NCBI RefSeq assembly: GCF_000272005.1
Contig: NZ_AKKU01000015.1
Span: 62,001-126,000 of the forward strand
Direction: 5' to 3'
Source: Alishewanella agri BL06
Lineage (GTDB): Bacteria > Pseudomonadota > Gammaproteobacteria > Enterobacterales > Alteromonadaceae
DNA: 64,000 nucleotides
Part shown: in pieces, positions 1,452 to 64,000 of the stretch
How the letters are laid out: the number at the start of each line of letters is the position of its first letter
Position numbering within the stretch: position 1 is the stretch's first letter
Made by a program: the position numbers and the translations under genes
Notes under the pieces: generated by a model
What the model saw: only the letters and a program-made list of their open reading frames with translations
Told to the model about the DNA's origin: nothing
Database searches by the model: none

Positions 1452-3280
1452 GTGTCCAGCCTCTGGAAATTGCGTTTTAGCCGCTGGCGTACCAGATCAG
1501 CCAGGGTGTTAGCCATAAAGGTGAAAATAAATAACAGAATAGCGACTAAAAACAACATCCGGTAATGGCTACTGTCAACTGCAGCTTCCGGTAACTCAAT
1601 GGTCAGAGTGGCAGTTAAACTGCGTAGCCCCTCAAACAGGTTAAAGTTGCTGATTGGCGCATTACCGGTTGCCATTAAAATAATCATCGTTTCGCCCAGC
1701 GCCCGGCCCAGCCCCAACATGACCGCAGCCAGGACGCCTGGCAACGACAGTGGCCAAATCACCCGCCGCACGATTTGCCAATGCGTCGCGCCCAGTGCTG
1801 ATGCCCCCAGCGTTAACTGCCGCGGTACCTGTGACATCACATCGTAGCAAATACTAAAAATGATTGGTAACACCGCAAAGCCCATTGCCAGACCAACGAC
1901 CAAGGCATTACGCTGCTGATAACTGACGCCCTGCTCGTTTAACCAAAACCGAAAACTGCCGCTAAAAAACTGTTGTTGCAGGGTGTCACCGCCCAGTAAC
2001 GCCAGATAAGCTGTAACAAACAGCAAGGCGGCCAGCAGCATTAAATCCCAGCCGCTGCCAGGGATCTGTTGCCAGCGCTTCGGCAGCCGCGGCCACAGCC
2101 GCGCCAAAGCCAGCACCAGCAAGGGCAGCAGCAATAAAAACAGCAGCAATGCCAGCAAATGTTGCTCCAACGCCGGCGCCAGCCAGATCGCGGCCAGAAA
2201 ACCGATAATTACCGTTGGAAACAAGGCCAACAGCTCAATCAGCTGACTGAGCCTGCTACGTAACGGCTCACTGAGGAAACAGGCGGTATAAAGTGCCGCC
2301 AGTATGCCCAGCGGAACCGCAACCAGCATGGCATAAAATGCGGCTTTCAAGGTGCCAATAGTCAAAGGCACTAGTGAGTACTTACCCTGTCTTAACTCGG
2401 CGCCGCCACTACTTTGCCAGACATACTCCGGCTGCTGCCAACCTTCGTACCAGACCTTCTGGAACAGGGTGCGCCAGGAGATTTCCGGATGACGGTTGTC
2501 CAGTTGTAATGCAGTTGGTTCGCCTGGCCCCAGCAACCATAACTGTTCGTTACGCTGGCTAAACTGTAACCTGGTCGCCCTTTGATACTCCGCAGCCTGC
2601 CCCTGCCACAAAGGTTTAGTCAGATTGGCGTAAAACAGGCTCACGCCCCCCGCGGCATCCAGCACAGCAAAACCACTGCGGCCCTGTTCAGGTGCAATAT
2701 CGACAATGGCCGCATTGCGTCTGGCAAAAGGCTTAATCCAACTGATACGGAGCTGCCCGTGCTCATCAGGCAAGAAAAACCATTGTTTCAGCTGGCCACT
2801 ACTGTCACCGGAAACAATACTTTGCTTGCCTGCCAACCAACGCAGCGTCGTTAAATTCACAGTGCGATCCGTTAACGATAAACGCTGCAAACAGCCCGCT
2901 TCAGGTTGTCGTTGCCACCATAAACAAGCCTCGCCATTACTGGCAGCCAACAACAGATAACCTTGCAATGGCTCGACTAAGCTAAAGGCCACCTCAAAAC
3001 CGGCAGCAGTCGCCGCTGCTGCCGGTATCGGAGCTGGCGTTATGTCAAAAGCGGGGGGGGAGTGTTCTACCACTATCGGCTGAGCAGAAACCGGTTTAAA
3101 CAACGGCGTGACCTCTGTCAGCAGATAAACGAAGATCCCAAGCAAGGCCAGAATCACACTGCCACCTGCCAGTGTAATCAACCAGGACCAGAGTCGGTTC
3201 AACCAGCGGCGCTGCTGCGTTCGACGCTGCCGCTGTTTACCGGCGGGTAAGCGACTCAGCGGCGGGGTGCCTTGTGTCAT
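1448..3280 (-). CDS. pstC: Phosphate ABC transporter permease PstC (first system), with large periplasmic domain
   Basis: Second permease subunit of the first Pst system, 610 aa against about 319 in E. coli. One membrane segment near residues 32-55 is followed by about 240 residues that look like WD/beta-propeller repeats (LRWLAGKQSIVSGDSSGQL, EQGRSGFAVLDAAG). The six-helix permease domain starts near residue 305, with the EAA loop LGASALGATHWQIVRR and RALGETM. It overlaps pstS upstream and pstA downstream by ATGA junctions. The extra domain is presumably periplasmic; its role is unknown. The PstC assignment rests on the permease half. Confidence 0.9.
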   Translation of the reverse strand: MTQGTPPLSRLPAGKQRQRRTQQRRWLNRLWSWLITLAGGSVILALLGIFVYLLTEVTPLFKPVSAQPIVVEHSPPAFDITPAPIPAAAATAAGFEVAFSLVEPLQGYLLLAASNGEACLWWQRQPEAGCLQRLSLTDRTVNLTTLRWLAGKQSIVSGDSSGQLKQWFFLPDEHGQLRISWIKPFARRNAAIVDIAPEQGRSGFAVLDAAGGVSLFYANLTKPLWQGQAAEYQRATRLQFSQRNEQLWLLGPGEPTALQLDNRHPEISWRTLFQKVWYEGWQQPEYVWQSSGGAELRQGKYSLVPLTIGTLKAAFYAMLVAVPLGILAALYTACFLSEPLRSRLSQLIELLALFPTVIIGFLAAIWLAPALEQHLLALLLFLLLLPLLVLALARLWPRLPKRWQQIPGSGWDLMLLAALLFVTAYLALLGGDTLQQQFFSGSFRFWLNEQGVSYQQRNALVVGLAMGFAVLPIIFSICYDVMSQVPRQLTLGASALGATHWQIVRRVIWPLSLPGVLAAVMLGLGRALGETMIILMATGNAPISNFNLFEGLRSLTATLTIELPEAAVDSSHYRMLFLVAILLFIFTFMANTLADLVRQRLKRNFQRLDT

Positions 3281-5024: not shown

Positions 5025-7157
5025 ATGGAACAGCAGCACACCCCGGCCCCGTCCTCTGAGTATCCATTATTTCCGAGAGAACTCAGTTGGTTGGCCTTTA
5101 ACGGCCGGGTGTTACAGGAAGCCGCCGATACCCGCAACCCACCCATTGAGCGGCTGAGATTTCTCGGTATTTATTCTAACAACCTGGATGAGTTTTTCCG
5201 GGTGCGGGTTGCCGATGTGAAACGCCGTATTCTGCTGAAAAAATATCAAACCTATGAACACGAAGATGCTGAGCTGCTGCTGATTGAAATTCAAAACCAG
5301 GTATTGCAGCTGGGTAAGCAGTTCAACAAAATCTACCTGGATATTCAGTTGGAGCTGCGTAAACACAATATTGAGTTAATTGACGACAGTAAACTGACCG
5401 AGTTGCAATCCGGCTGGGTAAAAAGCTTTTTTAAAAATGAAGTTAAAAAGCATATCTCACCGATCATTCTGTCCAGCACTGATGCCTCGCTCAGTAAGAT
5501 CCTTGAAGATAATACGACCTATCTGATGGTGGAAATGACCGGCAGTAATAAACCGGAATATGCCATAGTGCAGGTACCCACAGATGAAGTATCGCGTTTT
5601 ATTGAGCTGCCGCTAAATCTGAATACCCGGAAGAAGAACGGTCATTACCGCCGGCAGATTTTGTTACTGGACGATATTATTAATCACTGTATTGGCGATT
5701 TATTTCAGGGCTTTTTTGAGTTTGACCAAATCTGTGCCTTCTCGCTCAAGCTGACCCGTGACGCTGAGTACAATATCAGCGATACGCTGGATCAGAGCTT
5801 GATTGATAAAATGTCCAAAGGGATCCGCCAGCGGCTGAAATCAGAACCGACGCGCTTGGTCTATGATGCTGCTATGCCGGAGCAAATGTTAAAAGTGCTG
5901 ACTAAACAGCTTGGCACCGGCTCGATGGATGCGTTAATTGCCGGTAGCCGCTACCGTAACTTCAAAGACTTTATCGGTTTTCCCAACCTGGGCCACCAGA
6001 GTATGGAGTTTGCGCCGCTGCCGCCGTTGCCCAGTGCAGATTTTGAAGCGCATCCCACTACTTTTGACGCCATTCGTAATGCCGATATTATGTTGTACTA
6101 CCCTTATCACAGCTTTGGCTACTTTACCGAGTGGGTACGGCAGGCGTCATTCGACCCTAAGGTCACCCATATCAAAATCACCATGTACCGGGTAGCGAAA
6201 CATTCGCGGGTTATTCATTCGCTGCTGGATGCGGTGCGTAATGGTAAGAAAGTTACCGTGGTAGTCGAATTAAAAGCGCGTTTTGATGAAGAAAACAACA
6301 TCAATTGGGCCAGAAAAATGACCGATGCCGGTATTGAAGTCATTTTTGGCCAGACCACGCTAAAGATTCACTCGAAGATTTGTCTAATTACCCGGCTTGA
6401 GAAAGGTAAGCCGGTACGCTATGGCCATATCGGCAGTGGTAACTTTAACGAAAAAACAGCGCGTATCTACACCGACATGAGCTTATTTACCTGCCATCCG
6501 GAAATCACCGCTGAAATTGAGCAGGTTTTTGAGTTTATTCAATACTCATACCGGCCATTCCAGTTTAATCATTTAATTGTGTCGCCTACCTGGAGCCGGC
6601 CGAAATTGCTGCAGTTAATTCAGCGTGAAATCGACTTCGCGGTGAGTGGCCGTAAAGCAGAGATTTTCCTGAAAGTGAATAATCTGGTCGACGAAGAAAT
6701 TGTGCAGTTGCTGTACAAAGCCAGTCAGGCCGGTGTCAAGATCCGGATGATTATTCGTGGAATGTGTACCCTGGTACCCGGCCTTCCCGGCAAGAGCCAG
6801 AATATTAAAGTGATCAGTATTCTGGACCGTTTTCTCGAACATGCCCGGGTGTATGTATTCCACAATGGCGGTGACACTGATTTATACTTATCTTCGGCCG
6901 ACTGGATGACGCGTAACATCGACCAGCGGGTTGAGGTTGGCGTGCCGATTCTGGATGCAAAAATTAAGCAAACGATTTTAACCACTCTGGATATCCAGTG
7001 GCGGGATAACGTCAAAGCCCGTATGATTGACGCTAAACAGAGTAACCCTTATGTAAAGCGTGGCAATAAGCGGAATATCCGCTCGCAGCAAAGCATCTAT
7101 GATTTCTTTGCTGCCCAAAGCCAGCTGTTACTGCAACAGACTGAACCGGAATTTTGA
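5025..7157 (+). CDS. ppk: Polyphosphate kinase 1
   Basis: PPK1 reversibly transfers the ATP gamma-phosphate to growing polyphosphate at the inner membrane. The protein is 710 aa, close to the family norm (about 690). N domain: FPRELSWLAFNGRVLQEA and NNLDEFFRVRVA. The two phospholipase-D-like C domains carry the autophosphorylated histidine in TLKIHSKICL and the second histidine in VYVFHNGGDTDLYLSSADW. The ATG at 5025 is chosen because AGGAG lies seven bases upstream; an earlier in-frame ATG at 4998 lacks this. It is directly coupled to ppx and preceded by a Pho box, so storage follows phosphate signalling. Confidence 0.97.
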   Translation: MEQQHTPAPSSEYPLFPRELSWLAFNGRVLQEAADTRNPPIERLRFLGIYSNNLDEFFRVRVADVKRRILLKKYQTYEHEDAELLLIEIQNQVLQLGKQFNKIYLDIQLELRKHNIELIDDSKLTELQSGWVKSFFKNEVKKHISPIILSSTDASLSKILEDNTTYLMVEMTGSNKPEYAIVQVPTDEVSRFIELPLNLNTRKKNGHYRRQILLLDDIINHCIGDLFQGFFEFDQICAFSLKLTRDAEYNISDTLDQSLIDKMSKGIRQRLKSEPTRLVYDAAMPEQMLKVLTKQLGTGSMDALIAGSRYRNFKDFIGFPNLGHQSMEFAPLPPLPSADFEAHPTTFDAIRNADIMLYYPYHSFGYFTEWVRQASFDPKVTHIKITMYRVAKHSRVIHSLLDAVRNGKKVTVVVELKARFDEENNINWARKMTDAGIEVIFGQTTLKIHSKICLITRLEKGKPVRYGHIGSGNFNEKTARIYTDMSLFTCHPEITAEIEQVFEFIQYSYRPFQFNHLIVSPTWSRPKLLQLIQREIDFAVSGRKAEIFLKVNNLVDEEIVQLLYKASQAGVKIRMIIRGMCTLVPGLPGKSQNIKVISILDRFLEHARVYVFHNGGDTDLYLSSADWMTRNIDQRVEVGVPILDAKIKQTILTTLDIQWRDNVKARMIDAKQSNPYVKRGNKRNIRSQQSIYDFFAAQSQLLLQQTEPEF

Positions 7158-8707
7158 GCATAACTGAATCAGCCAGCACCACCAGCCCTTATATCGCCGC
7201 AGTTGATTTGGGCTCGAACAGCTTTCACATGGTGATCGCCCGGATTGTCAAGGGCGACATCCAACTGCTGCATCGGGAAAAACAGAAAGTTCAACTGGCC
7301 GAAGGCTTAAACGAAGACTTGGTACTAAGTGAAGAAGCCATCGAGCGCGGGTTGAATGTGCTGCGGCAGTTTGCCGATACTCTGCAACCTTTCGCACCGC
7401 AGTCCGTGCGGGTGATTGCCACCTATACCTTGCGTCGCGCCAAAAATGCCGCCACGTTTTTACGACGGGCAAAAACCTTATTTCCGTTTCCGATTGAAGT
7501 GATTTCCGGTCAGGAAGAAGCACGTTTTATCTATCAGGGCGTCGCACATTTTGAGCACTTTAGTGGCAAGCGGCTGGTCATCGATATCGGTGGTGGCAGT
7601 ACCGAGTTTGCCATCGGCGACGGCGCCCAGCCACTGCGGCTGAGCAGTCGCAATATGGGCTGCGTCAGCTACGCGAAGAGCCATTTTCCGGCAGGGAAAA
7701 TCAGTGCCCGGCGCTTTAACAAGGCCATTATTCAGGCCGAGCAGGAACTGGAGCCGATTATCAGCAGCTTCCGGGCTACGGGTTGGCAGCAAGTCGTCGG
7801 TACCTCGGGCACCATCAAAACACTGCGTGATATTGTGGTCAACTTTGGCTGGACCAACGGACCGGTTGAGTTATGTCATTTATTGCAATTACGCGATTAC
7901 CTGCTTAACTTTGACAACAGTGCAGAGCTGGAACTAACCGGCCTCACCGATGACCGCAAGCTACTGCTCTGCTCGGGTCTGAGTATTCTGATTGCCGCCT
8001 TTCAGATGCTGCAAATTGAACAATTGGTCTATGTTGACGCCGCACTGCGTGAAGGCGTGCTGTATGAGATGAGTGATCGGATGCAACATCTGGATATTCG
8101 CGAACAAACTATGTACAGCTTGCTACAACGCTATGATATCGACCAGGCCCAAGCCAATCGGGTTAAGGGAACGGCGCTGGCGCTGTTGGCGCTGGTGCGC
8201 GATAGCTGGCAACTGGATGACGAAGATGCCTTGCTGCTCGGTTTTGCCGCAACCGTGTATGAAATCGGCCTGCATATTAACTCATCCGGGGTACAAAAAC
8301 ACTCGGCTTACATTCTGCAAAACGCTAACCTGCCGGGCTTCAATCAGGAGCAACAAAGTTTGCTGGCCTGTCTGGTGCGCTTTCACCGCCGTAAAATTCG
8401 TGCTGATGAAATCCCCTATTTCAGCCTGTATGAGTTGCCGAAGGTGATTAACTTGTTGGTACTGTTACGCTTGGCTGTGTTGTTAAATCAAAAACGCCGC
8501 GATGATTTTCTACCGCCTCTGACCGCAACCGCCAAGGTACAATATCTGCAGTTACAACTGGCTCCGGAATGGTTGCAACTGCAAAGCGTGCTGGCCGCCG
8601 ACTTACTGCAAGAGCAGAAAATTCTGAAGAAAATTGCTTTTAAACTGGAGATCCCGACTTTGCAGGATCTGCCCGATGGTGCAGTTTTTACCGAGCTGGC
8701 ATCCTGA
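7154..8707 (+). CDS. ppx: Exopolyphosphatase
   Basis: Ppx/GppA phosphatase, 517 aa, which releases phosphate from polyphosphate ends. It has the ASKHA ATPase-like fold: AAVDLGSNSFHMVIAR near residue 14, VIDIGGGSTEFAIG near residue 140, VGTSGTIKTL near 215. The C-terminal half resembles an HD-type domain (NSSGVQKHSAYILQN). No ATG is available at the N-terminus. A TTG at 7154 overlaps the ppk stop (TTGA), which suggests termination-reinitiation. The opposing activities of ppk and ppx share one transcript, as in E. coli. Confidence 0.95.
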   Translation: MSITESASTTSPYIAAVDLGSNSFHMVIARIVKGDIQLLHREKQKVQLAEGLNEDLVLSEEAIERGLNVLRQFADTLQPFAPQSVRVIATYTLRRAKNAATFLRRAKTLFPFPIEVISGQEEARFIYQGVAHFEHFSGKRLVIDIGGGSTEFAIGDGAQPLRLSSRNMGCVSYAKSHFPAGKISARRFNKAIIQAEQELEPIISSFRATGWQQVVGTSGTIKTLRDIVVNFGWTNGPVELCHLLQLRDYLLNFDNSAELELTGLTDDRKLLLCSGLSILIAAFQMLQIEQLVYVDAALREGVLYEMSDRMQHLDIREQTMYSLLQRYDIDQAQANRVKGTALALLALVRDSWQLDDEDALLLGFAATVYEIGLHINSSGVQKHSAYILQNANLPGFNQEQQSLLACLVRFHRRKIRADEIPYFSLYELPKVINLLVLLRLAVLLNQKRRDDFLPPLTATAKVQYLQLQLAPEWLQLQSVLAADLLQEQKILKKIAFKLEIPTLQDLPDGAVFTELAS

Positions 8708-9308: not shown

Positions 9309-10646
9309 TTATTTCACTTTAAACTTGGCACGCTTCTTCGGTGTCTGCACGCCTATCACCAATTCTGGTGGTAAGGCAAAAGAGAAGCTACTGCCTTTCC
9401 CCGGCTCAGAAAAAATCAATAATTGGCTGTTATGCCGGGATAATACATGTTTAACGATCGACAAGCCCAGCCCGGTGCCGCCGGTATTGCGCGCCCTGGC
9501 CTGATCGACGCGGTAAAACCGTTCAGTCAGGCGTTTAACGTGATGCGCTGCGATCCCTTCACCGTTATCGGTAACGGTAAAGAGGGCGCGCTGACCATCG
9601 CGCTGCCAGCTGACCTCGATTTCGCCACCAGCCGGCGTATATTTAATCGCATTCGTCACCAGATTCGAGAAAGCGCTACGCAGCTCATCCGGCGCGCCGG
9701 TGACTTTCAGCGTGGTGTCTATCGAAAAGTGTAATTTGTGCTGCTTATCCCGATTCAGGGTTTCCGCTTCCGTCGCAATCAGCTGCAACATTGCCGGCAC
9801 ATCCACCTCCTGATCAAATTGCACCCGCGCTGCGGCTTCAATTCGCGATAAGGTTAGTAACTGTTGCACCAGGCTATCCATGCGCCGGGTTTGCTCCAAC
9901 ATCACGCCGTGCGCTTTTTGCCAGATGGCAGCCGGCGGTTGCTGCTCACCATCCATCACCTCCAGGTAACCCTGTAATACCGTCAGTGGCGTGCGCAGTT
10001 CATGTGAAACGTTGGCAACAAAGTCTTTGCGGATTTGCTCTAACTGTTTAAGCTGGGTGATATCACGCACTATCAACAAAAATTGCGCTTTGCCATAAGG
10101 CATCATCTTACATTCCAGCATCACACTGGATGATGTGGGCGACATCACTTCCAACGGCTGCTGAAAGTTTTGTTGTTTCAGATAATGATGAAATTCCGGC
10201 GAGCGGATCAGGTTATCGATACGCTGACCTTCGTCACTCGGCCAACGCAACCCGACCAGCAACTGTGCCAGCTTGTTACACCAGATAATGCTCCAGTCTT
10301 CGTTTAATACCACTACCGCTTCAGGCAGCGCTTCGGCACCGTCGCGAAAGCGCCGCACCAGAGTGCGCAGCTCTTTGCGTTTACGGCGCTCACGACGTTG
10401 TTGAAAGTAAATACCATCGAAGATTTGCTGCCAGCTGCCATCACCGGCGGGTGGGGTTAACTTGCGATCGCGCCATAACCACTTATCGAGCAGAAAAATA
10501 TGTTTATATTGCCACAGCAGATGCCCCAGGCTCAGCAGCAATAAAAATAGCAGCACCTGGCCGAACATCCAGCCGACAAAGGCCGTTAGCCCATAGTAGA
10601 GCAGCGCCTTGCTGGCCAGCCGTTTTTTCGACAGCAGCAGGCGCAT
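9309..10646 (-). CDS. phoR: Phosphate regulon sensor histidine kinase PhoR
   Basis: Inner-membrane histidine kinase, 445 aa, that phosphorylates PhoB under phosphate limitation. Two N-terminal membrane segments (about residues 13-50) lack a real periplasmic domain, as in E. coli PhoR, so phosphate status is read through the Pst system. A PAS domain lies near residues 95-200, the phospho-acceptor motif VSHELRTPLTVLQGYLEVM near 214, and the ATPase N box (NLVTNAIKYTPAGG) and G boxes (DNGEGI, GGTGLGLSIVKH) at 330-415. It starts six bases after the phoB stop. Confidence 0.96.
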   Translation of the reverse strand: MRLLLSKKRLASKALLYYGLTAFVGWMFGQVLLFLLLLSLGHLLWQYKHIFLLDKWLWRDRKLTPPAGDGSWQQIFDGIYFQQRRERRKRKELRTLVRRFRDGAEALPEAVVVLNEDWSIIWCNKLAQLLVGLRWPSDEGQRIDNLIRSPEFHHYLKQQNFQQPLEVMSPTSSSVMLECKMMPYGKAQFLLIVRDITQLKQLEQIRKDFVANVSHELRTPLTVLQGYLEVMDGEQQPPAAIWQKAHGVMLEQTRRMDSLVQQLLTLSRIEAAARVQFDQEVDVPAMLQLIATEAETLNRDKQHKLHFSIDTTLKVTGAPDELRSAFSNLVTNAIKYTPAGGEIEVSWQRDGQRALFTVTDNGEGIAAHHVKRLTERFYRVDQARARNTGGTGLGLSIVKHVLSRHNSQLLIFSEPGKGSSFSFALPPELVIGVQTPKKRAKFKVK

Positions 10647-59376: not shown

Positions 59377-61179
59377 ATGGCCACCAATTTCTTTCAGCAA
59401 CAGGATCTGGCCCGGCGCAATACTAAGGTGCTGATCCTGTTGTTCGCGCTGGCGGTGCTGGCGTTGATAGTTCTGACCAACCTGCTGGTGATGGTCAGTT
59501 TCAGCCTGTTTCAGGGCGCACCCTTACAACTGCCGTGGGAAGTGATCAGCAGTATCAGTCTGGTGGTCATTGCCGTGGTTGGTTTGGCCATAATGGCAAA
59601 ATGGCAGCGCTTAAAGCTCGGTGGCCGCACCATCGCCGAAGCACTTGGCGGTAACCGGGTATCCCCCTCAGCCCAGGAACCGTTGCAACGCCGGCTGTTA
59701 AATGTGGTTGAGGAAATGGCGCTGGCCGCTAACCTGCCGGTACCGCCGGTCTACCTGTTACCGGAAAAAGGCATTAATGCCTTTGCCGCCGGTTACAGCC
59801 CGGCCGATGCCGTGATAGGTGTCACCCAAGGTGCGCTGGAGCAACTTAGCCGCGACGAACTGCAAGGCGTAATCGCCCATGAATTTAGCCATATTCTAAA
59901 CGGCGATATGCGGATGAATATCCGACTCATCGCGGTACTGAATGGCATTTTATTTATTGGCCATCTCGGTTATTACCTGTTACGCGCTGGCCGCGGCGCC
60001 AGCTATGCCCGCTCCAGACGCAATAATAATGAGGGTGCCGGCGCCATTTTGCTGTTAGGGGTTGGCCTGATTGTTATTGGCTACCTTGGTTCATTTTTTG
60101 GTAATCTGATTAAAGCGGCCGTCAGCCGGCAGCGTGAATATCTGGCCGATGCTTCGGCGGTACAGTTTAGCCGTAATCCAAGCGGTATTGCCGGCGCCTT
60201 AAAGCGTATCGGTGGCCATCAATACGGCGCCAAAGTGCAGCACGCCAATGCCGATGAAGTCAGTCATTTATTTTTTGGCGAAGCGCTAAGCCGCTGGGTA
60301 TCTATCTTTGCCACTCATCCGCCACTGGAAAAGCGTATTCGCCGGCTCGACCCGAGCTGGAATGGCCGCTACCCGGCAAGTCAGGCGCCGGTTAAACCCT
60401 CGCCATCACAAGCAGCAGAACAACCGCAGGAACGGCAACGTCGGGCCATGCTGGCGGCGATCCCGGTATTGTTGACGCAAAGCAGTCATCAGACCCGCCC
60501 GGCACAAGCCATCGCCTGTGCTTTACTCCTTAGAACCGACACCTTAGCTGCGCAGTTAACCGCCATTAAAGCCTATGGTGGCAGCCAGCTGCTGGCCGAA
60601 GTCGATCAGCTCTCCGATCCGGTACAACGCCTGGCCCTGCCACAGCAGGTACAGTTATTACAAATGTCGGTACCAGCGCTTAAGCAGCTGAGTGAGTCAG
60701 AGTTCCGCGCCTTTGACAAGTTACTGCGACACCTTGCCGGTAACACGCCGGATCTGGCGCAGTGGTTAAGTTTAAGCTTATTGGAGCATGTGGTCGCCAG
60801 CGAGTTCGACAGTAAGGAACTAGTACGCCAATACAACCGGCATAATCTGGCGGAGCTGTTACCTGCGTTGCTACCGCTGCTAAGCGCTGTGGCCAATGCC
60901 GCTGGCGACAGCAGCCGGCAACAGCAAGCCTGGCAGGCCGCACTCCTTGCCCTGCAGCTGGACACGACCACCGCACAACCGGCAGTGCAATTTAGCCAGT
61001 TAGATCAGGCGCTACGGCCACTGCTTACCGCGTCACCGGCAGTTAAGCAGCAATTATGGCAAGCCATACTCGCCGCTGTTACCGCTGATAAAACCGCTTC
61101 TGCTGCGGAACAAGGTCTGCTTAACCTGCTGGCGCTGCTGCTGGAAATGCCATTACCCGTTACCGACGATTTCAGCTAA
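59377..61179 (+). CDS. M48 family membrane metalloprotease with C-terminal extension
   Basis: 600 aa, about twice the length of HtpX. Two N-terminal membrane segments (about 15-80), M48 catalytic part with zinc motif VIAHEFSHILNGD near residue 166, two more segments, and the distal glutamate region REYLADASAVQFSRNPSGIAGALKRIGG. A soluble C-terminal extension of about 260 residues (from about 345) is helical and of unknown role. Substrates are probably membrane or envelope proteins. Translationally close to lemA. Confidence 0.93.
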   Translation: MATNFFQQQDLARRNTKVLILLFALAVLALIVLTNLLVMVSFSLFQGAPLQLPWEVISSISLVVIAVVGLAIMAKWQRLKLGGRTIAEALGGNRVSPSAQEPLQRRLLNVVEEMALAANLPVPPVYLLPEKGINAFAAGYSPADAVIGVTQGALEQLSRDELQGVIAHEFSHILNGDMRMNIRLIAVLNGILFIGHLGYYLLRAGRGASYARSRRNNNEGAGAILLLGVGLIVIGYLGSFFGNLIKAAVSRQREYLADASAVQFSRNPSGIAGALKRIGGHQYGAKVQHANADEVSHLFFGEALSRWVSIFATHPPLEKRIRRLDPSWNGRYPASQAPVKPSPSQAAEQPQERQRRAMLAAIPVLLTQSSHQTRPAQAIACALLLRTDTLAAQLTAIKAYGGSQLLAEVDQLSDPVQRLALPQQVQLLQMSVPALKQLSESEFRAFDKLLRHLAGNTPDLAQWLSLSLLEHVVASEFDSKELVRQYNRHNLAELLPALLPLLSAVANAAGDSSRQQQAWQAALLALQLDTTTAQPAVQFSQLDQALRPLLTASPAVKQQLWQAILAAVTADKTASAAEQGLLNLLALLLEMPLPVTDDFS

Positions 61180-61307
61180 AACTGCAACGCCAAACTCTAC
61201 CGCCTAAACACGCTTGCGGTTAATTCGCAGCAGGATCCGGCCAGAGGGCTTTAGTGCAGCTCCGACCTCAGGTAGAATAGCGCTTTGTTTAGCTAGCCGG
61301 GGTGCCC

Positions 61308-61772
61308 ATGTCTGATAATCGTTTGTTCCTGTTGTACGATCCGTCGTTCGACGAAATGGATGCCGAAGGCTGCCCGGGTTTTGGCTATGTACTGCTGTTT
61401 TCCGAGCAGGATGCCGAACAATTTACCCCGGGTGAAAACCCCAGCTGCGCCGCCGTTTCAATGCTGTTTACCGATCATGCCGATGGCAGCATCAGCGGTG
61501 ACTTATTAGGCTGGGCGCATCTGGATGATCCGGTATTTCAGCGCTATCCGCTCGGGCATTTTCTGGCCTTAATGGAGCAAGCCGCCCAGGTGGCAATTAA
61601 TGCCTACCGTCAGGTGCATCAGGTACCGGATAAGCTGGTGGCGGTGCATTTAGCAGACGACGACCTGCTGCAATTTGATGTGCAGTTTCTCGACCTGCAG
61701 CTCACTGATCAGCAGGCAGAAACGCAACTGGCACAGCAATTGATGCTGGGCCGGCCTTACCTCGATTCGTAA
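61308..61772 (+). CDS. Hypothetical acidic protein
   Basis: 154 aa, cytoplasmic, rich in Asp/Glu (YDPSFDEMDAEGCPGFGY, FSEQDAEQFTPGE, VAVHLADDDLLQFDVQFLD). I do not recognise a domain. ATG 61308 with GGGG ahead is preferred over GTG 61302. It lies between the M48 protease and the HDOD gene as a single unit. Confidence 0.75.
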   Translation: MSDNRLFLLYDPSFDEMDAEGCPGFGYVLLFSEQDAEQFTPGENPSCAAVSMLFTDHADGSISGDLLGWAHLDDPVFQRYPLGHFLALMEQAAQVAINAYRQVHQVPDKLVAVHLADDDLLQFDVQFLDLQLTDQQAETQLAQQLMLGRPYLDS

Positions 61773-62722: not shown

Positions 62723-62893
62723 ATGGCCCACCACAAAACCACCCTGCCGCAAAAAATCTGCCCGGTGTGTCAGTTAGCTTTTAGCTGGCGCAAAAAGTGG
62801 CAGCGTAACTGGGATGACGTGCGCTACTGCTCTGAACGCTGCCGCCGGCAACGCCAGCATGCGCACGCCACCTCGCCGCAAGACAGTGACTAA
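62723..62893 (+). CDS. DUF2256 zinc-ribbon-like small protein
   Basis: 56 aa. DUF2256 signature: [16 protein letters not shown] and [12 protein letters not shown], with four cysteines in CxxC pairs that would bind zinc. Its stop TAA touches the dusC ATG directly, so they are coupled. Function unknown. Confidence 0.88.
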
Positions 62894-63832
62894 ATGAAAA
62901 TCGTACTGGCCCCAATGGAGGGCGTGGTGGATCACCTGATGCGCGAGATGCTGACGCAAATTGGCGGCTATGACTTGTGCATTACCGAATTTGTGCGGGT
63001 GGTGGACCAAAAACTGCCGGCGAGAGTATTTACCCGGCTGTGCCCGGAACTGCTGCAAGGTGGTAAAACCCGCGCCGGCACCCCGGTACGGGTGCAATTG
63101 TTGGGGCAGGAACCACACTGGCTGGCCGAAAATGCAGCGCGGGCGGTGGAACTGGGCTCACCCGGCGTCGATCTGAATTTTGGTTGCCCGGCCAAGGCGG
63201 TGAATAAAAGTCGCGGCGGCGCTGTGCTATTAAAAGAAACCGAGACCCTGTATCGGATCGTAAAAGCCGTGCGCGACGCCGTACCGGCGCAGTTCCCGGT
63301 CAGCGCCAAAATTCGGCTCGGTTATGACGATACCAGCCTGGCGCTTGACAATGCTAAGGCCATTGCCGAGGCCGGCGCCAGCAGCCTGGCGATCCATGCC
63401 CGCACCAAAAGCGATGGGTACCGGCCACCGGCGTACTGGCCCTGGATTGCCAAAATAAAGCAGCAGGTAAAAATACCGCTGGTTGCTAATGGCGAGATCT
63501 GGAATGCCGAACAGGCGCTGCTATGTCAGCAGCAAAGTCAGTGCCAGGATATTATGCTTGGCCGCGGCGCACTGGCGATGCCCAATCTGGCGCGGCATAT
63601 CCGGGATCAGGCCGCCCCACTGCCCTGGCCAGAGGTGCTGGCGTTATTGATGCACTATTCCGAATTTGAAATTGCCGGCGATAAAGGCAAATATTACGCT
63701 AACCGGGTAAAGCAATGGTTTAGTTACCTGAAACTGCAATACCCTGAGGCGCAGCAGTTATTTAGCCAGCTGCGCTTACTGACCAAAAGCCGGGATATTT
63801 TGCAGTTACTTGAGCAACAACGCAGCGACTAG
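62894..63832 (+). CDS. dusC: tRNA-dihydrouridine(16) synthase DusC
   Basis: 312-aa FMN enzyme that reduces U16 in tRNA. MKIVLAPMEGVVDHLMREML is the flavin-binding start; LNFGCPAKAVNKSRGGAVLLK carries the catalytic cysteine; ARTKSDGYRPPAYW and LVANGEIW follow. The MEGV and CITEFVRV pattern fits DusC better than DusA or DusB. The downstream gene starts nine bases after its stop with a shared AGGAG. Confidence 0.95.
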   Translation: MKIVLAPMEGVVDHLMREMLTQIGGYDLCITEFVRVVDQKLPARVFTRLCPELLQGGKTRAGTPVRVQLLGQEPHWLAENAARAVELGSPGVDLNFGCPAKAVNKSRGGAVLLKETETLYRIVKAVRDAVPAQFPVSAKIRLGYDDTSLALDNAKAIAEAGASSLAIHARTKSDGYRPPAYWPWIAKIKQQVKIPLVANGEIWNAEQALLCQQQSQCQDIMLGRGALAMPNLARHIRDQAAPLPWPEVLALLMHYSEFEIAGDKGKYYANRVKQWFSYLKLQYPEAQQLFSQLRLLTKSRDILQLLEQQRSD

Positions 63833-63840
63833 GAGACCAC

Positions 63841-64000
63841 ATGGCGCAGGGCAGTCTGATTTGCCTGGGTACCGGCATTATGCTGGGCGCCCATCTGGAC
63901 CCGCTTAGCCGCAACTATATCGCTGCTGCCGATGTGGTCTTTGTGCTAATGGCCGATGCGTTAACCGAGCAATGGTTACTGGAAATGCGCCCGGACGCCC
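63841..64000 (+). CDS. SAM methyltransferase start, borosin-type (SonM/OphMA-like), cut by window edge
   Basis: First 53 codons of a tetrapyrrole-methylase-fold SAM methyltransferase. The opening GSLICLGTGIMLGAHLD, then LSRNYIAAADVVF and QWLLEMRP, match what I remember of the split-borosin enzyme SonM (GSLVCVGTG, LSRSYIEHADIVF, QRWL) and of fungal OphMA (GSLTIVGTGI). Ordinary cobalamin or siroheme methylases start differently (VGAGPGD). AGGAG five bases upstream overlaps the dusC stop. The C-terminus, and any precursor peptide, lie beyond the edge. Confidence 0.7.
   Translation, partial: MAQGSLICLGTGIMLGAHLDPLSRNYIAAADVVFVLMADALTEQWLLEMRPDA

Follow-up and report, generated by a model that had tools for sequence, protein, structure and literature searches.

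The gene cut off by the right-hand end of the window (the whole stretch of 64,000 nucleotides analysed, G000:C15:62001-126000, from Alishewanella agri BL06) encodes, by sequence, a type IV split-borosin methyltransferase (MT). It heads a cassette in which a small candidate precursor gene is followed by a gene for a TPR-GGDEF protein (the receptor), and a hypervariable block runs from within the precursor into the sensor part of the receptor. This linked, modular and hypervariable receptor points to signalling. We think it probable that the cassette is a type IV split borosin whose N-methylated peptide serves as a signal, with a TPR sensor that faces outward detecting it and controlling c-di-GMP. 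With slightly less assurance, we lean towards a wider proposal for the order: that its split borosins are cell-cell signals, N-methylated and perhaps membrane-permeable RiPPs, which hypervariable outward TPR sensors pass on to a kinase or to c-di-GMP. Species would exchange pherotypes as blocks, and some genomes would be sender-only and others receiver-only.

The MT gene starts with an ATG 8 nt past the stop codon of the upstream Dus gene, with AGGAG just ahead of it, and has 53 codons before the window ends. Features beyond that point are numbered on the extension L002, where the L002 position is the window position minus 60000 (Table 1). The visible 53 residues matched no Pfam family; the full protein matches TP_methylase (PF00590, 1.6e-16). 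Its best PDB match is SonM (7ltc, 2.7e-73, over residues 4-255), to which it is 47% identical over 252 positions, and further matches are to fungal borosin enzymes (6mjf, 7.8e-49; dbOphM and OphA, ~1e-48 to 1e-43; MroMA, 8e-37). Up to E=10 there were 26 distinct PDB sequences, 25 of them borosin enzymes and one a designed protein (E 0.14); RsmI, CobA and siroheme methylase were not among them. An NCBIfam search gave only YabN and uroporphyrinogen methyltransferase, both far below cut-off. The four SonM residues probed by mutation in PMC8429565 (Y58, R67, Y71 and Y93) correspond to Y60, R66, Y70 and Y92, and all four are present in 28 of 28 orthologues. Like SonM, the protein stands alone, with no fused clasp or core, and would N-methylate the backbone of a separate precursor.

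Membership of PF00590 would also suit a methylase of the general tetrapyrrole or rRNA kind, with no relation to borosins, but we give this a negligible chance: apart from the designed protein the PDB matches are borosin enzymes, the active-site residues are kept, and SonA-like precursors adjoin the gene in relatives. On the PDB and NCBIfam matches, together with the active-site residues, a generic tetrapyrrole methylase was rejected. The preliminary description, which pointed to a likeness with the N-termini of SonM and OphMA, had read the truncated gene as the possible start of a borosin alpha-N-methyltransferase, intact beside Dus and DUF2256 genes and with a strong ribosome site. This reading was correct, the frame runs on to full length, and comparison of the full protein with SonM, OphMA-type enzymes and tetrapyrrole methylases came out on the borosin side.

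The best-matching named loci are those of Alishewanella jeotgali and A. aestuarii (both 99%), followed by that of Arsukibacterium perlucidum (83%). A search of 60 genomes found MT matches in 38, counting the window's own; of the 30 further genomes of the genus, 28 have one. In G011 there is, in addition, a truncated MT of 139 aa, a second copy accompanied by a precursor and GNAT of its own (L042 flipped 217-636 and L084).

Table 1. Coordinates of the cassette and its neighbours. Positions without a prefix are window positions.
Feature	Position	Strand	Basis or remark
DUF2256 gene, upstream of Dus	62723..62893	+	PF10013 1.6e-21
Dus family tRNA-dihydrouridine synthase, upstream neighbour	62894..63832	+	PF01207 6.5e-75
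Split-borosin alpha-N-methyltransferase, 265 aa	63841..64000 (cut by window end)	+	PF00590, SonM match
Complete MT gene	L002:3841-4638 = G000:C15:125841-126638	+	Frame end equivalent to 64638
GNAT	L002:4625-5185		PF13302 3.9e-12; 14-nt overlap with MT
Candidate precursor, 82 aa	L002:5262-5510		Small ORF, in place in 28/28 loci
Receptor N-part, up to in-frame TAG	L002:5517-6080		
Receptor C-part with GGDEF, same frame as N-part	L002:6195-7265		PF00990 5.9e-47
Hypervariable block	L002:5401-6150		41-58% identity

The cassette runs MT, GNAT, 82-aa ORF, TPR-GGDEF gene, after which come genes on the opposite strand that, going by their sequences, we presume to be tdh/kbl-like. Across the 28 orthologue loci (the window's own and 27 others) the gap from precursor to receptor ranges from −170 to 35 nt. 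We saw neither a protease nor an exporter in the cassette. Scans of the region for promoters and terminators gave no more than shuffled sequences, within their spread. A palindrome, TGCCTA-CAT-TAGGCA (L002:5218-5232), lies in a short conserved stretch 5′ of the Alishewanella-type precursors; it is exact in L036 and altered in L037-L039, and the window holds no close copy of the pattern. Elsewhere, a pepsin-like aspartic protease (PF00026) lies beside a borosin MT (L064 flipped 1018-2325 and G054:C1:625543-626772), where it is a candidate maturation protease. Six of the 60 genomes have this protease, and all six also have an MT; as it is absent from the window genome, it was discarded as the maturation enzyme of this strain.

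The 82-aa ORF begins 623 nt past the MT stop codon, behind the GNAT gene, and is likely to be the precursor on which the MT acts. On its own it gave only weak phage tape-measure matches, and an AlphaFold model of a precursor of the window type was poor (pLDDT 59). A typical precursor of the genus reads MxNVIxxLExLGxDAxL...KIVCMIxPAEEP, followed by a Pro/Glu-rich tail; the window strain has the putative core KIICFIV where relatives have KIVCMI and similar, and a 31-residue Pro/Glu-rich tail follows. Five Alishewanella-type precursors, the window's included, have a shorter leader and were kept apart from the other 23 of the 28 in hhalign comparisons with the SonA group. The 23 reached a probability of 96% over leader and core, seven other precursors 98%, and the five only 12%; what links the five to the other precursors of the genus is the core (74%, 17 columns) together with their position. 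The L077 precursor matches SonA itself at 3e-14. It is via relatives only that KIICFIV appears equivalent to the SonA core region. A small separate precursor gene close to the MT, with a helical borosin-binding domain and a hydrophobic C-terminal core, had been predicted from the truncated gene; the small gene and the hydrophobic core are in place, but the leader alone is not recognisable as SonA-type, the borosin-binding domain of type IV precursors being a five-helix bundle, and the core is followed by the long tail rather than ending the peptide. By eye, none of the precursors has an evident export signal.

To describe the genes that accompany the MT across the order we surveyed 129 loci holding 132 MT places, which come from related genomes and are not independent. 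One list of 107 MT places contributed 80 additions, 14 being already in the set and 13 left out, two of which lie inside included stretches. A precursor-like ORF lies near 127 of the 132 places; the five without one on the same strand are L122, L133, L140, L145 and L166. A same-strand partner lies near 125 (97 GGDEF, 17 histidine kinase and 11 TPR-only proteins). The seven places with no called partner are L113 and L114, each beside another MT that has one, L132, L145, L153, L161 and L166; L153, which has a weak TPR match by Pfam, and L161 are at contig ends. A recognisable GNAT gene was near only 57 of the 132.

As seeds for the precursor profiles we used loci up to L084, so that L088 and later loci are unseeded; these hold 82 MT places, with a precursor at 77 and a partner at 75. 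The profiles match 140 ORFs, 134 of them near an MT, against a background of 863 of 4334 small ORFs near an MT. The other six matches are five second precursors and that of L122, which adjoins its MT but lies on the opposite strand. For GGDEF genes only, chance adjacency within the window's own genome is about 5%, an estimate from 48 of 50 GGDEF places. Partners are spread over at least eight of the order's family codes (f1, f6, f7, f13, f14, f15, f16 and f20). In L041, L043, L044, L048 and L050 a second precursor stands ahead of a second GGDEF gene under one MT, which suggests that the two genes, precursor and receptor, move together.

Six partners in which Pfam recognises TPR served as seeds for the profile of a single TPR sensor family. 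It covers the N-terminal parts of 110 of 112 long partners, whose output is a GGDEF domain or a histidine kinase. The two outside it are the L122 partner, a GGDEF protein 2100 nt away, and the kinase counted for L079, which is unrelated and upstream; a TPR kinase lies downstream in that locus. TPR-type partners thus number 124 of 125 at most. The commonest Pfam family, TPR_12, was found in 79 of the 112 N-terminal parts, and L036 matches none. For the 11 TPR-only partners the assignment comes from phmmer comparison with six proteins, which Pfam places in TPR families, L130 below cut-off. Two other arrangements were seen within the order: a tandem pair of borosin MT genes 5′ of one precursor and TPR kinase (L082:6992-8633), and a paralogous cassette of the genus (L067, L069-L075) in the order precursor, TPR-GGDEF, MT, with short SonA-like precursors that end in FxFPVK-like cores. 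Outside the order, two of seven loci combine a precursor with a GGDEF or kinase neighbour: L177, where the GGDEF protein directly follows the precursor, and L178, with both GGDEF and kinase. No GGDEF or kinase neighbour is present in the other five. Two loci outside the order (L180:5946-6833 and L181:4535-5767) have what appear by eye to be transporter-like genes after the MT.

Hydropathy suggests how the receptor is placed in the membrane. Of 113 long partners, 105 begin with a hydrophobic stretch near the N-terminus and 112 contain a further one inside the protein, an arrangement that should place the sensor on the periplasmic side. The A. jeotgali sensor, modelled from three sequences (pLDDT 86), is a superhelix of helical repeats with a long helix at its end. 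In Foldseek it retrieved LGN first and then NprR-NprX (2.5e-4) and Rap-CSF (5.8e-4), at sequence identities of 10-15%. The modelled sensor therefore resembles peptide-binding TPR folds, with no specific match among them; TPR folds bind many ligands and LGN outranks both NprR and Rap, which speaks against a peptide-specific reading of the fold.

The distribution of sequence differences within the cassette was followed by comparing the window genome with two sister species, G016 and G003, pairwise in 150-base bins. Most bins between L002 positions 1351 and 5400, like most of those beyond 6150, were 93-100% identical, while the five adjacent bins of the block fell to the values in Table 1 in all three pairs. 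The edges of the block are sharp, with 93-100% identity at 5370, 44-60% at 5400 and 100% at 6180-6269; it begins just past the codons for KIICF of the precursor and ends within the receptor sensor. Lower values in flanking bins involved the window genome at 2851-3000 (85%), 6751-7050 (91-92%) and 9901-10050 (89-90%), and G016 at 6151-6300 (89-90%) and 7051-7350 (69-83%). The sole other low stretch is L002 901-1350, where the window genome is 62-85% identical to both sisters. This second divergent stretch, window 60901-61350, lies just ahead of and at the start of a 156-aa ORF at 61302.

Over the 28 orthologues, mean identity was 73% for the MT and 70% for the GGDEF part, as against 32% for GNAT, 35% for the leader, 50% for the core, 41% for the tail, and 29% and 39% for the N- and C-terminal halves of the sensor. 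L041 and L044 share 96% identity in the MT and 98% in GGDEF but only 28% in the tail and 28% in the N-terminal sensor half. L041 and L042, of the same type, share 85% in the MT with 69% in the tail and 64% in the sensor, and in the close pairs L043/L044 and L048/L050 the tail and N-terminal sensor half are still 83-97% identical. In 17 of the 28, the nearest neighbour by MT differs from that by sensor. The tree of the N-terminal sensor half rejects the clade of L002, L036 and L037 (p-AU 1e-7), which the rest of the same protein supports at 100/100, and groups L036 with G010, on long branches and with five open forks. As the sensor half rejects a clade backed by the output half, the block difference is, on this comparison of trees, one of allele replacement and not mere fast drift.

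Ligand and sensor appear to co-vary, in contrast to a conserved output part, with linkage as a confounder. Given MT distance, tail distance correlates with sensor distance (partial Mantel 0.50, p=0.001); tail distance does not follow GGDEF distance (−0.21), and a correlation with the sensor is also seen for GNAT (0.54). Caution is needed in reading the first value as contact between tail and sensor: they are physically adjacent, so co-transfer alone could yield it. By analogy, the variation of precursor tail and sensor resembles pheromone-receptor polymorphism.

In the mechanism that we propose, the MT would bind the leader of the precursor and N-methylate the backbone in the hydrophobic core, and GNAT may acetylate the precursor or the peptide. 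A protease would then release the peptide, which would leave the cell and be sensed by the adjacent receptor, with its predicted signal peptide, outward TPR superhelix and single TM helix and its GGDEF domain or, in relatives, histidine kinase; the GGDEF output would be c-di-GMP synthesis. Precursor tail and sensor half would be exchanged between species as a block, giving specificity types like those of Bacillus comQXP and staphylococcal agr. What the sequences themselves establish is the MT, the kinship of the precursors within the genus, the linkage of the genes, the layout of the receptor as far as hydropathy shows it, and the variability of the block; methylation, cleavage, export, binding and any influence on c-di-GMP are inferred. 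Several points weigh against signalling: the cassette shows no protease or exporter, the strain's own receptor is interrupted, its own leader is not SonA-like, and there are the five partnerless loci outside the order.

Those five loci would also fit an ordinary split-borosin natural-product cluster, whose peptide acts elsewhere (as an antimicrobial, on metal or on membranes) and whose TPR-GGDEF protein or kinase merely tunes the cluster or reports product level. Regulators are common in RiPP clusters. According to the discussion in PMC8429565, no final product is known for type IV. We nevertheless consider such a cluster unlikely, as a plain regulator is not expected to share a hypervariable block with the precursor tail or to be duplicated in precursor-receptor units. 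Less likely again is that the precursor stays unprocessed and, inside the cell or in the periplasm, serves the receptor as a regulatory subunit, its N-methylation being structural and no free peptide signal arising. This would account for a cassette with no visible protease or exporter and for the long Pro/Glu-rich tail past the core, but the precursors have no export signal evident by eye whereas the sensor should face outward, and the exchange of alleles between species suggests communication between cells.

Some genomes appear to have only one working half of the system. The window strain has an intact MT and precursor, and its receptor has an in-frame TAG at codon 188 (L002:6078-6080, equivalent to window 66078-66080), where the sister species carry intact copies. 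It may therefore be a sender with no working receptor; an assembly error at the TAG is possible. The converse is found in G010, which has an intact receptor but, in the interval from Dus to that receptor (L085 flipped 7930-8326), neither MT nor GNAT nor a recognisable precursor, a receiver-only state that, from the gene content, is due to loss of these three genes. G025 has an orphan receptor, its only MT being a paralogous one elsewhere. Block hypervariability and the receptor-only G010 would fit attack and immunity pairs too, in which cells whose TPR protein does not match are harmed by the peptide, while a matching TPR protein confers immunity or recognition. Such kin competition seems improbable to us, if a shade less so than a regulatory subunit: GGDEF and histidine kinase outputs would be superfluous for immunity, and a self-harming peptide would hardly be tolerable in the window strain, whose MT and precursor stand beside an interrupted partner.

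Neither the partner nor the hypervariable block had been foreseen in the preliminary description, and it is these that set the cassette apart from its closest known relative, SonM/SonA of Shewanella oneidensis (PMC8429565; borosin types as defined in PMC11395268 and PMC11285071). The two systems share a separate MT of ~263 aa, the four active-site residues and an adjacent small precursor, and one locus of the order, L077, has a SonA-like precursor and the gene order MT, precursor, TPR-GGDEF; here, GNAT lies between MT and precursor, the leader is shortened and a long Pro/Glu-rich tail follows the core. In the main text of PMC8429565, GGDEF, tetratricopeptide and cyclase each occur 0 times, and the literature that we searched, a scope outside which the main split-borosin surveys and supplements lay, contained no paper that mentions both borosin and diguanylate. 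As far as this search goes, the enzyme is of a known kind and the linked, modular, hypervariable receptor is new. A linked, co-diversifying receptor offers a direct handle on the purpose of the peptide, and if the signalling reading is true, it would define a RiPP class that serves Gram-negative bacteria as a pheromone with input to c-di-GMP.

Other systems share single elements of the cassette. The Bacillus ComQXPA system has different chemistry and a kinase receptor that is not known to contain TPR. It shares polymorphic genes for a modifying enzyme, signal and receptor, and its comQ is not congruent with the housekeeping gene gyrA, according to PMC4408185; here, in contrast, GGDEF proteins predominate among the receptors, the MT that would do the modifying is conserved, and specificity is putative. 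In RcbA/RcbB of Vibrio vulnificus, a TPR-GGDEF protein has a TPR part that controls the cyclase activity, but its partner is another TPR protein, and borosin MT or precursor are not mentioned in the portion of PMC12282931 consulted. The RRNPP receptors NprR and Rap share the TPR superhelix, which in their case binds a peptide pheromone. Both are cytoplasmic, whereas the TPR part of the receptor described here should face outward on a TM protein.
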